The notes beneath the pieces are model-generated. The model saw only the letters and a list, made by a program, of their open reading frames with translations, was not told the DNA's origin and searched no databases. DNA of 7,087 nucleotides from a bacterium (GTDB lineage Bacteria; BMS3Abin14). Every line of letters starts with the position of its first letter. Position 1 is the stretch's first letter. The DNA lies in NCBI GenBank assembly GCA_029210545.1, contig JARGFV010000121.1, positions 1 through 7,087 on the forward strand. The letters are read 5' to 3'. The position numbers were made by a program, and so were the translations under genes. Positions 1,456-6,599 of the stretch are shown here, piece after piece.

Positions 1456-3810
1456 ATGCCCTTGAGCGCGGTCCCGATCCCCGGCTACGGATCCAGTACC
1501 CGGATAAAACCCCTTTTCCTTCTCCTGTCCTTTTCCGATAACGCCTTTTCATCCACCAATATCTCAAACTATCCCGCCTTTATCTTTTCAGACACTCCCG
1601 GGGTGATCGACAATACACTGGCCGATTATTACCGTGAGGTTTCTGGTGGAAAGCTTGTCATCGCCGGCGACAGCAGCAGCATCTTTACTATCGATATGGC
1701 CGCTGGTGCCAGGTCCTACGAGTATTACATCAACAACAATGCCGGTCTCGGGCGATACAAGGAGATGGTAACAGACGCCCTGGACCTGGCAGACACCGTC
1801 ATAGACTATTCCCTCTTCGATAACGACGGTCCGGATGGGATTCCGGGCGGCATCGACGATGACGGTGTCGTAGATGCCCTGGTCGTCGTCCACGCAGGGC
1901 CTGCCGCTGAATACTTTGGTACACCTGAATATTACGATCACATGATCAGTCACTACGATTCCTTCGGGACCGATTGGGTGAGCGTGGAGGGGACCGCGGT
2001 CAGGGACTGGGCCATGGTGCCGGAAAGGGATCCTGTCGACAGGAGTGCCGGGGCCGAAGCCCATGTCGGCAGCCTCCAATGGTCCCTGGGTACGGTGGCC
2101 CACGAGTTCGGGCACATACTGGGGTTGCCGGATTTCTATGACAGCACCCTGACCAACTTCGGGCTGGGCCATTACGACCTTATGTCATACGGCCTTTACG
2201 GGATGGATACCTTTGATCGGACCTATTACGACACGGCCTACTCCACCCCGTCCTGGGACCGTCCGGGCCACCTCTCCGCCTGGTCACGTGCGTATCTCGG
2301 ATGGGTCCAGCCTATTGCTGTCCACGCCGACACTGCGGTTGCACTCTGGCGTGCTGAAGACCCTGCTCCTGCTCTGACACCACAGGTATTAAAATTATGG
2401 AAATCAGGTTCGTGGAGCGGCGTGCCGGAGCCCATGGAGTATTTTCTGGTGGAACACCGGCAGAGCGCTCCGGGCAGTTACGATGAGGGGTTCAACGGCG
2501 CGGGAAAGGGCGGGCTGCTCATCTACCACGTGGACGAGACCCGGATGCGGGATATTTATGGCGACCTGATCCCTTACCCAAACGACTACGATGCCGGTGA
2601 CCCCGTCAAGGGGCTTGACCTTGAACAGGCTGATGGTAATGTGGATCTTGCCGGAGAGTTCGGAAAAACTATTGGTGGAGGGAACTTCGGAGATTTTCCC
2701 GAGTATCCGACGGTAACTAGCACTGGGGATTTCTTTTACAAGGGGTTCGGGTATTTCTGGGATTTCGTCACACCCGGAACCAATCCAAGTAGTTTTGACA
2801 ATGCAGGCTACACCAGCGATATCAAAGTCTGGGCAACATGGGGAGGCCTGAGCAGCGATTCCCTTTCGTCCTACACCATCACAGTGGATATGATCTCTGG
2901 CAACAGCACCATTGGTTACTCCGGGACCGACCTGACAGGCCCCTTCGTGGTCACCGGTGGGACCTTCGACGACGGAGACGACGACCCGTGGGTGACTGCC
3001 GGGCTTGGAGTGAGCCTCAGGCTTGAGATCCGGCACTCGGGCATCCCCAACACCGCCAGAGGCGTCACAGCGGTCCTGGACGTCGATGCTCCCGGGATCG
3101 CCTCCGTGTCGAGCAGCACCGTGTACTATGGAGACCTTCCAGCCCTGACGAGTTCGACAGGTGACGCGGAGTTCCTGTTCACCATGGCCCGGCCGGCTGC
3201 TGCCTTCACCTGGGTCCCCCTGGATTTCCACATCACGGACACAAAGGGGAACCTGAGCAGCGAAACGGTTTTCCTCCCGGTCATGGCACCGCCCAACACG
3301 CCGCCCGCTGTGGTCATTATCGAAGGTCCCCCACCGGTGAGCAGGGGAGATGCCGCATCGTTCTCATGGTCCGGGAGCGACCAGGAGGGCATCGTGGAGG
3401 GCTATTACATCGGCCTTGACAGCGCCGGGGATCCATCGGTGTGGACGACGGCCACCTCTGTGACTTATAGCGGCCTGGCCTATGGGGAGCACGCCTTTGC
3501 AGTGAAAGCTCTGGACGACGACGGCGCCGAGTCGGGTGTCTTGACCTGGTCCTTCACCCTGAGGAAGCCCTCCGGTGGACGAGGGCCCTGCTTCGTGGCC
3601 ACGGCCCTGTGGGGCGACCAACACTGGAAGACCAACCGTTTGAGGGCGTTCCGGGACGGTTATCTGGAAAGATCCGATGTCGGCAGCCGTCTGGTCCGGC
3701 TTTATTACCGCGCCTCTCCCGGCCCGGCACAATGGGTTGCCCGACGGCCCCGGCTCAGGAAGACCCTTTCCATCCTGCTTTCCACGCTGCTCTGGCCGTT
3801 TTTCCTGTGA
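1456..3810 (+). CDS. M6-family (immune inhibitor A-like) zinc metalloprotease with CFI-box-like C-terminus
   Basis: This is a 784-residue secreted-type metalloprotease. The zinc site HEFGH (residues 216-220, Glu217 catalytic) is followed by GLPDFYD and a Met-turn-like DLMSYG (241-246), the M6 signature. Upstream, YYREVSGGKL and the acidic loop DNDGPDGIPGGIDDDG with a DALVVVHAG strand match the M6 fold and likely calcium binding. After the catalytic domain come beta-sandwich regions and an Ig/Fn3-like domain (about 614-704). The tail PCFVATALWG (Cys712), then LRAFRDGYL, LVRLYYRASPGPAQWV, an Arg patch and a hydrophobic end, resembles the CFI-box-type C-terminal sorting region. ATG 1456 has GGAGG at 1441-1445, but initiation there would give no signal peptide. 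The real gene probably began at 1198, with the TAA at 1336 now interrupting it. The enzyme may be non-secreted, made by readthrough, or inactive as a gene. Confidence 0.85.
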   Translation: MPLSAVPIPGYGSSTRIKPLFLLLSFSDNAFSSTNISNYPAFIFSDTPGVIDNTLADYYREVSGGKLVIAGDSSSIFTIDMAAGARSYEYYINNNAGLGRYKEMVTDALDLADTVIDYSLFDNDGPDGIPGGIDDDGVVDALVVVHAGPAAEYFGTPEYYDHMISHYDSFGTDWVSVEGTAVRDWAMVPERDPVDRSAGAEAHVGSLQWSLGTVAHEFGHILGLPDFYDSTLTNFGLGHYDLMSYGLYGMDTFDRTYYDTAYSTPSWDRPGHLSAWSRAYLGWVQPIAVHADTAVALWRAEDPAPALTPQVLKLWKSGSWSGVPEPMEYFLVEHRQSAPGSYDEGFNGAGKGGLLIYHVDETRMRDIYGDLIPYPNDYDAGDPVKGLDLEQADGNVDLAGEFGKTIGGGNFGDFPEYPTVTSTGDFFYKGFGYFWDFVTPGTNPSSFDNAGYTSDIKVWATWGGLSSDSLSSYTITVDMISGNSTIGYSGTDLTGPFVVTGGTFDDGDDDPWVTAGLGVSLRLEIRHSGIPNTARGVTAVLDVDAPGIASVSSSTVYYGDLPALTSSTGDAEFLFTMARPAAAFTWVPLDFHITDTKGNLSSETVFLPVMAPPNTPPAVVIIEGPPPVSRGDAASFSWSGSDQEGIVEGYYIGLDSAGDPSVWTTATSVTYSGLAYGEHAFAVKALDDDGAESGVLTWSFTLRKPSGGRGPCFVATALWGDQHWKTNRLRAFRDGYLERSDVGSRLVRLYYRASPGPAQWVARRPRLRKTLSILLSTLLWPFFL

Positions 3811-4081: not shown

Positions 4082-4354
4082 TCATTCCCTTTCGTAAATC
4101 CCGCTCCTGTGGCCAACCATAAGCACCAATACCTGGATCTTGTCGTCCTGGATCTCACAAATAATACGGTAATCCCCGACCCGGTATTTCCATCGCCCGG
4201 CCAGCTCTTTTCTTAAAGGAGCTCCGTACCGGCGTGGATCCTCATCGGTCTGGATCCTTTCCTTCAGGTACTGAACGATCCGCTGCCGAACCGGGTGATC
4301 GAGTTTGGCCAGCTGTTTTTTTGCTGTTTCGGTGATCTCAATCCGCCAGGCCAA
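4082..4354 (-). CDS. relE: RelE/ParE-superfamily toxin (mRNA interferase-like)
   Basis: Starting at TTG 4354 the product is 90 residues: a beta strand (AWRIEIT), a helical hairpin (AKKQLAKLDHPVRQRIVQYL), then the conserved block GRWKYRVGDYRIICEIQ and the end VLMVGHRSGIYERE. Arg63, Arg83 and Tyr87 fall where E. coli RelE has its catalytic Arg61, Arg81 and Tyr87, so ribosome-dependent mRNA cleavage is likely. The start overlaps the antitoxin stop by 17 bases, which suggests translational coupling. TTG gives the usual 'MAWRIE' N-terminus of the family; ATG 4372 would add six residues (MNWNKS) and is possible. An open frame reaching back to 4567 exists only because it overlaps the antitoxin. The toxin looks intact. 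Confidence 0.9.
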   Translation of the reverse strand: MAWRIEITETAKKQLAKLDHPVRQRIVQYLKERIQTDEDPRRYGAPLRKELAGRWKYRVGDYRIICEIQDDKIQVLVLMVGHRSGIYERE

Positions 4355-4562
4355 GCTCTTGTTCCAGTTCATCCAGGGTGTAAGTCTTTTCCTGGCCGAC
4401 CTCCACCCTCTTAAGGATCTCATCCGAGATGTATGCCGCCTCGAGATCGTCCAGGTGCTCCAGGATCGCCTCCCGTGCGTAGAAAGATTTAGAGCGTCCT
4501 GTGCGTTTTGCCAGCGCTTCCAGGCGCTGTTCGATATCTTTCGGTAGACGCAATGCCAACAT
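4338..4562 (-). CDS. relB: Ribbon-helix-helix antitoxin (RelB/CopG-type)
   Basis: This is a 74-residue acidic protein. The N-terminal strand LALRLPKDIEQRLEALAKRTGRSKSFYAREAILEHL fits a ribbon-helix-helix DNA-binding domain (strand 2-6, helices about 8-19 and 24-37). The C-terminal half (DDLEAAYISDEILKRVE...LDELEQELGLAD) is the kind of acidic segment that wraps the toxin. Translation starts at ATG 4562 with AGGAGG five bases upstream. The gene is first in the pair, with the toxin overlapping its 3' end. The promoter TTGATA-17-TAGTAT and the palindrome TATACATGTATA lie just upstream, which suits autoregulation by the antitoxin alone or with its toxin. Confidence 0.9.
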   Translation of the reverse strand: MLALRLPKDIEQRLEALAKRTGRSKSFYAREAILEHLDDLEAAYISDEILKRVEVGQEKTYTLDELEQELGLAD

Positions 4563-4577
4563 GGCATCCTCCTTTGC

Positions 4578-4589
4578 TATACATGTATA
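4578..4589. promoter_or_regulatory. Palindromic operator of the relBE-type module
   Basis: TATACATGTATA is a perfect 12-bp palindrome 16 bp upstream of the antitoxin ATG. It overlaps the inner edge of the -10 box (4587-4592). Ribbon-helix-helix antitoxins usually bind such short palindromes to repress their own promoter. Confidence 0.6.
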
Positions 4590-4615
4590 CTACATGAGCG
4601 CATGTTGACTATCAA
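4587..4615 (-). promoter_or_regulatory. Sigma-70 promoter of the relBE-type module
   Basis: On the minus strand TTGATA (4615-4610) and TAGTAT (4592-4587) are spaced by exactly 17 bases. Transcription would start near 4580, inside the palindromic operator and about 18 bases before the antitoxin ATG, leaving room for its AGGAGG site. Confidence 0.6.
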
Positions 4616-4671
4616 ATCAATTTGTTCTGTTTTCATAGGCAGGATCTCCCCGTGTCCCCGCAGGTGTCCAG

Positions 4672-4727
4672 GTATCTACGTATCTACGTTGTTACGTCGT
4701 TACATAGGCACGTGGTTACGTAAGTAC
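4672..4727 (+). repeat. Degenerate 8-bp tandem array, consensus GTNNNTAC
   Basis: Seven consecutive octamers fill this stretch: GTATCTAC, GTATCTAC, GTTGTTAC, GTCGTTAC, ATAGGCAC, GTGGTTAC, GTAAGTAC. The outer GT and TAC are kept in most units while the middle three bases vary. Periodicity of 8 cannot come from coding sequence. No known binding protein can be assigned. Confidence 0.7.
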
Positions 4728-4853
4728 ATGGTCCCTCTCGCCCACGCGCCCATGCACTGGCTCCCGGATAATCCCGCACCGGGCGCCGATTTCCGGGATG
4801 ACGGGTGGATGGTGCGCCGGTCGGCCGGAAACCCTGATTTGATTTTCGTATTT

Positions 4854-4878
4854 CTCCGTGAACTCCGTGGCTCCGTGG
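4854..4878 (+). repeat. Three short CTCCGTG repeats
   Basis: CTCCGTG recurs at 4854-4860, 4863-4869 and 4871-4877, with spacing of 8-9 bases. It resembles phrases common in repeat-rich intergenic DNA. No function can be assigned. Confidence 0.5.
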
Positions 4879-4932
4879 TGAAATCCGGGCTTTTGCGCCA
4901 TGCGGCTGGAAACCATGGATTTATGGTTTGGT

Positions 4933-5117
4933 CTTCTTGGCGGCTTTGCCGTTCGGCAGGCTCACGGTCCTGAGCTTTGTCGAAGGACGGCTTAAGCGAA
5001 CGGAGTGAGCGAGCGTGAGACCGCCTTTCAGGTCGTATGGCCACAAGGCCATGGGTTCTCAACTTGTCACGCCATAGCTCAAAGAGCGACGGCGGAAGCC
5101 GCGAAGCCGCCAAGAAG
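4933..5117. repeat. 185-bp MITE-like element with 14-bp terminal inverted repeats
   Basis: The ends CTTCTTGGCGGCTT (4933-4946) and AAGCCGCCAAGAAG (5104-5117) are perfect inverted repeats. Inside are the hairpin at 4948-4991, a CGGAGTGAGCGAGCGTGAGA segment, a perfect hairpin ATGGCC-ACAA-GGCCAT (5037-5052), and a copy of the 51-bp repeat also found at 3843-3893. No transposase is present. It could be a non-autonomous mobile element or a composite of older repeats; no convincing target-site duplication is visible. Confidence 0.5.
4948..4991. other. 44-bp imperfect hairpin inside the 185-bp element
   Basis: Paired segments are GCCGT/ACGGC (4948-4952 with 4987-4991), TTCG/CGAA and GCTCA/TGAGC (4960-4964 with 4971-4975), around a CGGTCC loop. 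The CCTTCGACA...GCTCAGG strand of it also occurs alone at 797-813, so this is a mobile or recombining repeat unit. Confidence 0.6.
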
Positions 5118-5190
5118 GTCCAGACCTGGAAAGGTTTATTCTAAACAGATTTCCCCCTTTGTGTACTTCGTGGTTAGCTGCTCTGAACGA

Positions 5191-5490
5191 TCAACCGGTC
5201 CCGGCCCTGGTCCGAACTTCGCGAACAAGCCTTTCGCCGAGTTCGTCCTCCGCGACATCCAGGTCGTAGTCGGTCTGGATGCCCAGCCAGAACTGGGGAG
5301 AAGTGCCGAAGTACCGGCTCAGGCGGAGGGCCGTGTCAGCCGTGATCCGCCTCTTCCCCAGAACGATCTCGTTGATACGCCGTGCCGGAACGCCGAGGTC
5401 CAGGGCCAGCCGGTTCTGGCTCAGCCCCAGGGGTGCGAGGAATTCCTCCAGGAGGATCTCTCCCGGGTGGATCGGCTTCAGCTTGGTCAT
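5191..5490 (-). CDS. higA: HigA-type antitoxin, helix-turn-helix (toxin partner degraded)
   Basis: This is a 99-residue XRE-type helix-turn-helix protein. HPGEILLEEFLAPLGLSQNRLA (8-29), then the recognition helix region VPARRINEIVLGKRRIT (34-50) and TALRLSRYFGTSPQFWLGIQTDYDL (about 52-76) are hallmark HigA sequences. The C-terminus is Arg/Glu-rich. ATG 5490 is chosen because AGGAG lies eight bases upstream and MTKLKPIHPGEIL is the usual family start; an upstream in-frame ATG at 5589 would add 33 non-homologous residues. In intact loci higB precedes higA. Here only a 17-codon higB relic remains, ending 11 bases before this ATG. The antitoxin is complete, so it probably still binds its operator, and it could neutralise HigB from another locus or have been kept as a regulator. 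Confidence 0.92.
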   Translation of the reverse strand: MTKLKPIHPGEILLEEFLAPLGLSQNRLALDLGVPARRINEIVLGKRRITADTALRLSRYFGTSPQFWLGIQTDYDLDVAEDELGERLVREVRTRAGTG

Positions 5491-5501
5491 GGCATTGACT
5501 C

Positions 5502-5555
5502 CTAATGGTAATCGATGATCTTTTCTGTTTCCCTGTCCCTGAAGGATTTGATCAT
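5502..5555 (-). pseudogene. higB: higB toxin relic: in-frame internal deletion to 17 codons
   Basis: ATG 5555 to TAG 5502 encodes MIKSFRDRETEKIIDYH. The first 13 residues (MIKSFRDRETEKI) match the standard N-terminus of HigB toxins. The last residues (I-I-D-Y-H-stop) match the standard HigB C-terminus (typically ...VEIxDYH). HigB is normally about 90 residues, so roughly 75 central codons, including the RNase core, are missing with the frame intact. The relic therefore cannot be a toxin. Keeping start, stop and the 11-base gap to higA would preserve translation leading into higA. The family match is from memory of HigB sequences, not from a search. Confidence 0.8.
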
Positions 5556-5560
5556 GGATA

Positions 5561-5589
5561 AGTTTATAACCCCTTGCGTTTAACGTCAA
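5561..5589 (-). promoter_or_regulatory. Likely promoter of the higBA locus
   Basis: On the minus strand TTGACG (5589-5584) is followed after 17 bases by TAAACT (5566-5561), with a TATAAA overlapping at 5568-5563. A start point near 5554-5556 would make the higB relic nearly leaderless, while higA has its own AGGAG. A second TTGACG lies further up at 5616-5611 without a good -10. Confidence 0.45.
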
Positions 5590-5595
5590 GCGTTA
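5581..5595. promoter_or_regulatory. Possible HigA operator
   Basis: TAACG-TCAAG-CGTTA is a perfect inverted repeat with 5-bp arms overlapping the -35 hexamer of the higBA promoter. HigA proteins bind such short inverted repeats at their own promoters. Inferred from position and symmetry only. Confidence 0.45.
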
Positions 5596-5937
5596 TGAAG
5601 AATGGTATCGCGTCAAAATAACTAACCTCAGAGTCCACCTTTCTGGCCGTACGGCGCAAATGCCTGTGGTTAAATCCCGAGGAGTTGGGTCACGCGACAA
5701 CGCCTGTAACCTGAATCCCGTTTGTTGTTTCTCCTTGCGTGCTTGGCGGTTAAATCCCTGGCTTTGAGGCCACCTGGCTAAGCTCTTGGCTAACAGCAAA
5801 TGGAAAAAGCTTGGTTTGATTGCTCCAGAGCTTTTGGTCTCACTGCCTACCAGGCGGAGAACACGGAGGGGATCAATACTCGTTAACGAAGTGACGTGAA
5901 GTTAAAAACTGAAAGGCTAGGGTTTAGTTTTTTGGGG
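5596..5937. other. Intergenic region between higBA and vapC
   Basis: The left two thirds hold the second copy of the 112-bp repeat. The remainder (5758-5937) is A/T-richer and shows no ORF with a ribosome binding site and no clear hairpin terminator for vapC. Transcription from vapC runs into this stretch. Confidence 0.55.
5645..5757 (+). repeat. Dispersed repeat of about 112 bp, copy 2
   Basis: It starts with the palindrome GCCGTACGGC (5646-5655) and runs through GGGTCACGCGA, CCTGAATCCCGTTTG and GTGCTTGGCGGTTAAATCC. It aligns over its length with 908-1020, with diverged sequence but the same order. It is non-coding. Confidence 0.6.
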
Positions 5938-6339
5938 TTATCCCAGGATTGTGGTAAGGACCTGCGGTACATTCTGGAAGTGCCTGTCAGCAGTGAGAAC
6001 TGTCAGGCCGTGCTGCATGGCGGAGGCTGCGATCCACAGATCGTTTGTCGGGATTGGCGTTCCTTGGCTTCGCAGATGAGACCAGATGGCAGCGTATCGT
6101 TCCGATGTATCCAAGTCCACTGGATATACACGGACACGGGGAGTCAGCATGAAATCATCTAAAAAACGACGATTTTTCGCCTCAAAACGTCCGCCAGAAA
6201 AACCGGACAGGAGTTCACCGATGATCACGGGATTCAAGGCTACTTCCGCAACCTCCTGAAGTATTCCTTTAGCCTGATCGCTTCCCCTGAAGAGGGCAGA
6301 GTACGCGGAAGTGTCGAGGAGGACCTTTTTCAATCCCAC
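5938..6339 (-). CDS. vapC: VapC-type PIN-domain RNase toxin
   Basis: This is a 133-residue PIN-domain protein if read from GTG 6339. The acidic active site is visible and complete: Asp9 in VLLDTSAYS, Glu42 in IIGELLSGF, Asp100 in PTNDLWIAA and Asp118 in LTADRHF. It is therefore expected to be a Mg-dependent RNase; VapC targets are often tRNA or rRNA, but the target here cannot be told. The gene overlaps vapB by 10 bases. GTG 6339 has GGAG only two bases away, whereas TTG 6333, giving MKKVLLDTSAYS, has the same GGAG eight bases upstream and matches the usual family start, so the protein is probably two residues shorter. The toxin looks intact. Confidence 0.92.
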   Translation of the reverse strand: MGLKKVLLDTSAYSALFRGSDQAKGILQEVAEVALNPVIIGELLSGFSGGRFEAKNRRFLDDFMLTPRVRVYPVDLDTSERYAAIWSHLRSQGTPIPTNDLWIAASAMQHGLTVLTADRHFQNVPQVLTTILG

Positions 6340-6599
6340 AGCTCCATGTCAATTTTCCGGTTGTCCCTGAACCTGTTTTCCAGTTCCGAGGCTTCCTCAT
6401 CTGTCCATGCCCCACAGAACCGGTCCAGGTCGTGGCTTATGGTGATCTGTTCACGCGGCCCAGGCTTGCCAAGGGCTTTTTCCAGCAAACCGATGACAGC
6501 TTTGTTCAAACTGGTCCTCTCTTTTCTGGCCTCGCTGCGCACGGCATCTTCCATCTCCGGGGGCAACCCTCTAATAGTCAGCTGCAAAGTTCCTGCCAC
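6330..6599 (-). CDS. vapB: VapB-type ribbon-helix-helix antitoxin
   Basis: This is an 89-residue protein from GTG 6599. The strand LQLTIRGLP and helices PEMEDAVRSEARKERTS and LNKAVIGLLEKALG form a ribbon-helix-helix DNA-binding domain (about 4-45). The C-terminal HDLDRFCGAWTDEEASELENRF is the acidic/aromatic segment that typically occupies the toxin's active site. The start is ambiguous: GTG 6599 abuts AAGGAG with no spacing, while TTG 6587 (MQLTIRGLPP) has GGAGG 11 bases and AGGA 5 bases upstream and matches the family better. It precedes vapC and overlaps it by 10 bases. A strong promoter and symmetric operator lie upstream. Confidence 0.9.
   Translation of the reverse strand: MAGTLQLTIRGLPPEMEDAVRSEARKERTSLNKAVIGLLEKALGKPGPREQITISHDLDRFCGAWTDEEASELENRFRDNRKIDMELWD

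Follow-up and report, generated by a model that had tools for sequence, protein, structure and literature searches.

What is left of a toxin-antitoxin operon when a frame of only 17 codons stands in front of an intact antitoxin gene? We met this arrangement in a 7,087-nucleotide stretch of DNA, here called the window, which is contig C121 of a draft genome (2.72 Mb, 241 contigs, 97% complete). The initial annotation had taken the short frame for a fossil of toxin loss, a higB gene shrunk by a precise in-frame deletion, and had added that its translation may be needed for proper expression of higA and had named binding of the remaining peptide to HigA as a further possibility. The reading we regard as very probable is that a GraT/GraA (HigB/HigA)-type higBA operon lost about 76 internal toxin codons in one in-frame deletion, leaving behind an orphan, self-repressing HigA. 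Two features frame the question:

5502 to 5555, minus strand: relic of higB (GraT-type toxin), codons 1-13 plus the last four (IDYH) and the stop codon, recognized from its translation and from comparison of its ends with intact HigBs.
5191 to 5490, minus strand: higA, an intact gene for a HigA/GraA-type antitoxin of 99 amino acids (MTKLKPIHPGEILL...), recognized by TIGR02607, profile score and homology to GraA.

Read from 5555 to 5502, the relic translates to MIKSFRDRETEKIIDYH followed by a stop, 17 codons in all, and ends 11 bp before the higA start at 5490; coordinates, sequence and spacing had all been reported exactly. Close higA homologues drawn from genome collections provide the comparison. 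The HigBs in front of them mostly have about 93 residues, begin M-I-[KR]-S-F-...-E-[TA]-E-[KR]-[IVL] and end [VITA]-D-Y-H, and the gap between the two genes in these intact relatives is typically 8-15 bp, with 11 bp common. At one such locus (L032), whose HigA is 79% identical and whose spacer is also 11 bp, the 93-residue HigB (MIKTFRDTETEKVFRR...NVEITDYH) resembles the relic at both ends; at another (L058), the right end agrees well at the DNA level (GAAATCATCGATTATCATTAGGAG vs AAGATCATCGATTACCATTAGGAG in the window). An alignment of both ends with full-length HigBs of close higA loci had been proposed as a check, and both ends are indeed shared. All 13 N-terminal residues lie within the residue sets of the intact relatives, a match with a random chance of about 4e-11 that excludes the DYH end and rules out a chance ORF; the chance of the DYH end, counted apart, is 1.25e-4.

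The locus has no match to the toxin family PF05015, the frame holding 17 codons against about 93. The order of a HigBA/GraTA module is nevertheless kept, with the toxin end first, then 11 bp, then the antitoxin, and the toxin-gene remains lie at the expected place with both ends matching intact HigBs. Sequence comparison thus lends good support to the relic as a fossil of HigB left by an internal in-frame deletion. The earlier description of the first 13 HigB residues joined to the last ones is exact, and the picture of toxin loss with promoter, start, stop and spacing preserved beside an intact higA stands.

The extent of the deletion is estimated from a usual 93-codon ancestor, in which case about 76 codons (about 228 bp) are missing in frame, and the junction would fall as follows:

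5513 to 5521, minus strand: putative deletion junction, around codons 12-14 (...GAAAAGATC joined to ATCGAT...), about 228 bp gone, placed by comparison with intact relatives.

We infer both the deleted length and the exact breakpoint, as the ancestor of the lineage was not found and there was no intact, closely related allele from this lineage among the higA homologues of the genome collections. At the join the triplet ATC is doubled, and both ends may have shared AGATC; a short shared sequence of this kind would explain the join, and the deletion perhaps arose at such a microhomology. Identity of 4-6 bp at the equivalent positions occurs in 12 of 68 intact relatives. Of the phrase "precise in-frame deletion", "in frame" holds; "precise" suits the frame, not a known enzymatic mechanism.

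The same junction bears on whether the relic was made by the assembler, through collapse or a chimeric contig, in an organism that still has full-length higB. That the genome is a draft of 241 contigs speaks for this explanation, but repeats roughly as long as a k-mer are needed for collapse, and the join offers only a few common bases; the junction is, moreover, in frame and in register, and a search of the assembly, at 97% completeness, found no second copy of the toxin gene. We consider an artefact highly improbable.

Nor did the 97% complete draft yield a GraT-type HigB elsewhere, so that the cognate toxin is absent from it, and higA in the window has no adjacent functional toxin. The only other HigB of the genome (on contig C143) is 34% identical to a GraT-type query over 60 residues and is adjoined by its own HigA, which shares 37% identity with that of the window. 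The gutted higBA is the middle one of three toxin-antitoxin loci in a row (4082-6599, minus strand); its neighbours are a ParE/RelE-like toxin with a RelB-like antitoxin and a PIN/VapC toxin with a FitA-like antitoxin.

The remainder of the window has features of its own. A 19-residue ORF at 609-668 on the plus strand (MKRRYIAPKVVGSSSVHPC), with a good ribosome site before its start, is possibly a lineage-specific precursor of a modified peptide; peptides ending in VG[ST]SSVHPC and a stop occur in 7 of 12 searched genomes of the window's family, in up to four copies (e.g. L231, MRKVRYIRPRLVGTSSVHPC), and in 0 of 19 genomes outside it. An M6-family metalloprotease of 784 amino acids whose C terminus carries a CFI-box domain (TIGR03296, NF041770) occupies 1456-3810 on the plus strand; before it, in another frame, lies a separate short ORF resembling a signal peptide (1198-1338). 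A 51-bp direct repeat in about three copies (201-360, 98% matches) directly follows the end of a biotin/lipoyl-domain gene.

The appropriate reference for the orphan is the GraTA system of Pseudomonas putida (PMC6393540), because the HigB of L032 matches GraT (PDB 6f8s_B, E 9.4e-26), far better than it matches P. vulgaris HigB, and because the HigA of the window aligns without gaps to GraA over 90 residues (6f8s, E 7.5e-20). By profile it is a TIGR02607 antidote_HigA (113.8 bits, cut-off 47.7), and a profile built from toxin-paired HigAs gives it 159.9 bits, against a mean of 154.7 (sd 8.1) for those HigAs. It keeps 49 of 50 conserved positions; this and the profile score give no sign of decay. 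Only I71 departs from the 70% consensus; its counterpart in GraA is the toxin-contact residue L73, and the other positions equivalent to GraA toxin contacts carry family-typical residues. We set aside relaxed toxin binding, since the change is conservative and too little for such a claim. Neutralisation of a GraT-type toxin by this HigA is still plausible. An intact HigA is no proof of selection, as the deletion may be recent.

Upstream of the relic, the control region appears to have survived as well:

5581 to 5595, minus strand: predicted GraA/HigA-type operator TAACGCTTGACGTTA (TAACG-N5-CGTTA), no mismatches, 25 bp upstream of the relic start.
5567 to 5581, minus strand: candidate second operator site, imperfect (AAACGCAAGGGGTTA, 2 mismatches), shifted by 14 bp relative to the first.
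5561 to 5589, minus strand: sigma-70-like promoter TTGACG-17-TAAACT, a match to consensus only, overlapping both operator sites.

A perfect operator overlapped by a promoter is what a HigBA/GraTA module has, and the P. putida graTA operator (AAATTAACGAATAACGTTAAG...) shows the same 15-mer architecture (PMC6393540). In our comparison the motif TAACG-N5-CGTTA, with at most one mismatch and at most 100 bp upstream of the higB start, occurs at 57 of 76 loci vs 0 of 70 control windows. The copy in the window is identical to that of many intact loci, and its 25-bp position is that of paired loci; it lies 90 bp from higA, a distance that is mostly 299-338 bp at loci with an intact higB. Of 57 intact relatives, 27 have a second site (at most 3 mismatches, offset 14-16); that of the window is imperfect, which counts against the preferred explanation. 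The promoter matches consensus at 9 of 12 positions, and two such sites were found in 651 bp where 0.2 are expected. A separate orphan higA with no detectable toxin (L062) has three operator-like sites about 220 bp upstream, one exact and two with one mismatch.

It could be asked whether the orphan has taken on a new role in regulating other genes. Its DNA-binding domain is intact, and such roles have been proposed for orphan antitoxins (PMC7192599, PMC10790755), but a search of the 2.72-Mb genome for exact matches found the operator nowhere else, and we think repurposing most improbable. On the preferred reading, an ordinary higBA operon would have lost about 76 internal toxin codons at once, with slippage or recombination between a few common bases as the probable cause; HigA would still be transcribed from the old promoter and would repress it through the operator at 5581-5595. 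With no GraT-like toxin to relieve repression, higA would become an antitoxin gene under simple negative autoregulation; its retention would be due to the recency of the loss, to weak selection or to an anti-addiction benefit.

Parallel losses help to judge whether the short frame itself matters. We surveyed 203 distinct higA-homologue loci for which the upstream sequence was long enough, sorting HigB automatically by profile: 139 are intact, 11 have a frameshift, a stop or a divergent end, 29 are partial and 24 undetected. About 26% thus lack a detectable part or all of the adjacent HigB, although some of those scored "partial" or "none" may carry a divergent toxin or one of another type. Several are internal deletions with the operator kept: at L052 (97 bp), the start codon is fused to NDQWR codons and the leader is out of frame; at L003 (55 bp), the deletion is out of frame and lies beside an integrase-like gene; at L091 (42 bp), the start is removed and the leader absent; and at L125 the higB deletion is in frame. 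L048 combines an out-of-frame higB deletion with no recognisable operator. A parallel case in which the states before and after the loss can be compared directly is L175, which lost 198 bp of higB in frame, between ...GAAGATCTTCCG and CGGCGACGCCTA..., compared with its near relative L042. Like the window, it has an internal deletion with an N-terminal breakpoint just after the EKIF codons, a perfect operator and an intact higA; unlike the window, it lost 198 rather than about 228 bp and its start codon too, and it has a relative that retains higB.

These loci speak to the proposal that the relic is a selected leader ORF, whose translation, ending at a stop 11 bp short of higA, is required for proper higA expression by translational coupling. 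A further feature enters here:

5499 to 5503, minus strand: Shine-Dalgarno sequence of higA, AGGAG, overlapping the TAG stop of the relic, as in intact operons.

The frame, start, stop and family spacing are all preserved, and three of six within-gene deletions are in frame (L002, L125, L175), as coupling might lead one to expect. Three of six, however, is no different from the one-in-three chance expectation, and with three deletions in frame and three out of it we dropped the idea of selection on the frame, there being no signal. Since AGGAG is kept over the stop of the relic, higA has its own ribosome site; at the 76 intact loci, a Shine-Dalgarno match of at least 4 bases precedes 63 higA starts and 10 higB starts, so that higB usually lacks one. 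In addition, higA is kept where the leader is out of frame (L003, L048, L052), without a start codon (L175, one of the in-frame cases) or absent (L091). The suggestion that upstream translation is needed for higA therefore lacks support, and a selected leader is in our view very unlikely. A more elaborate version would make the relic a selected regulatory minigene, a leader expressed from the promoter under operator control and without a Shine-Dalgarno sequence, from which ribosomes run off onto the overlapping one, setting the level of orphan, self-repressing HigA, which would serve as standing immunity against incoming GraT-type toxins. We hold this to be very unlikely.

Binding of the 17-residue peptide to HigA, tuning repression or antitoxin stability, fares no better. 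Its attraction lies in GraT, where it is the N-terminal segment that prevents the toxin-antitoxin complex from sitting on the operator (PMC6393540). That effect, however, requires docking on GraA via residues 27-50, the listed toxin-side contacts of the solved GraT-GraA complex, whereas residues 1-22 are disordered and not among them (PMC6393540). The relic retains about residues 1-13 and the last four of HigB, and no equivalents of the GraA contacts, all of which were deleted. The operator effect needs a docked toxin, and a free 17-mer should therefore have none.

Pattern searches point the same way. An in-frame mini-HigB with an ATG after it was found in 386 genomes at the window locus alone, beside one out-of-frame chance match (G338); viral contigs gave one out-of-frame match and none in frame. 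We rejected L115 as a mini-HigB because it is an out-of-frame chance match, and a conserved mini-HigB because the window locus was the sole in-frame case. In the same 386 genomes an operator followed by a DYH-stop pattern likewise occurred at the window locus alone. Plasmid records held no similar relic, the best DNA match being half of the query, the operator/start region, in a Marinobacter plasmid. Peptide binding is thus scarcely credible and the least likely of the readings weighed here. Most likely, to judge from the loss of toxin core and antitoxin contacts, the 17-residue frame is a passive leftover.

Decayed modules are a well-documented source of orphan antitoxins (PMC7192599, PMC10790755, PMC7354431). 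Such antitoxins are common in surveys, and their origin and persistence are rarely visible; here a short scar lies beside an intact operator and antitoxin, the operator being unique in the genome. The operator-to-higA distance is also an easy criterion for large-scale searches for gutted higBA loci. The locus is an unusually clean case of common module decay, not a new system. As in degraded type II loci of Klebsiella (PMC7192599) and E. coli (PMC10790755), the antitoxin was kept; what differs here is that one internal deletion left a 17-codon relic and spared the operator, start, stop, spacing and frame. With GraTA of P. putida (PDB 6f8s, 6f8h) it shares a homologous antitoxin, the TAACG-N5-CGTTA operator and the toxin-first order, but it has no toxin, and with codons 1-13 and the last four surviving, de-repression by the toxin N-terminus is impossible. 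The window may thus serve as a natural knock-out for a prediction derived from GraTA, namely that once the disordered N-terminus of the toxin is gone, HigA is left in plain negative autoregulation.
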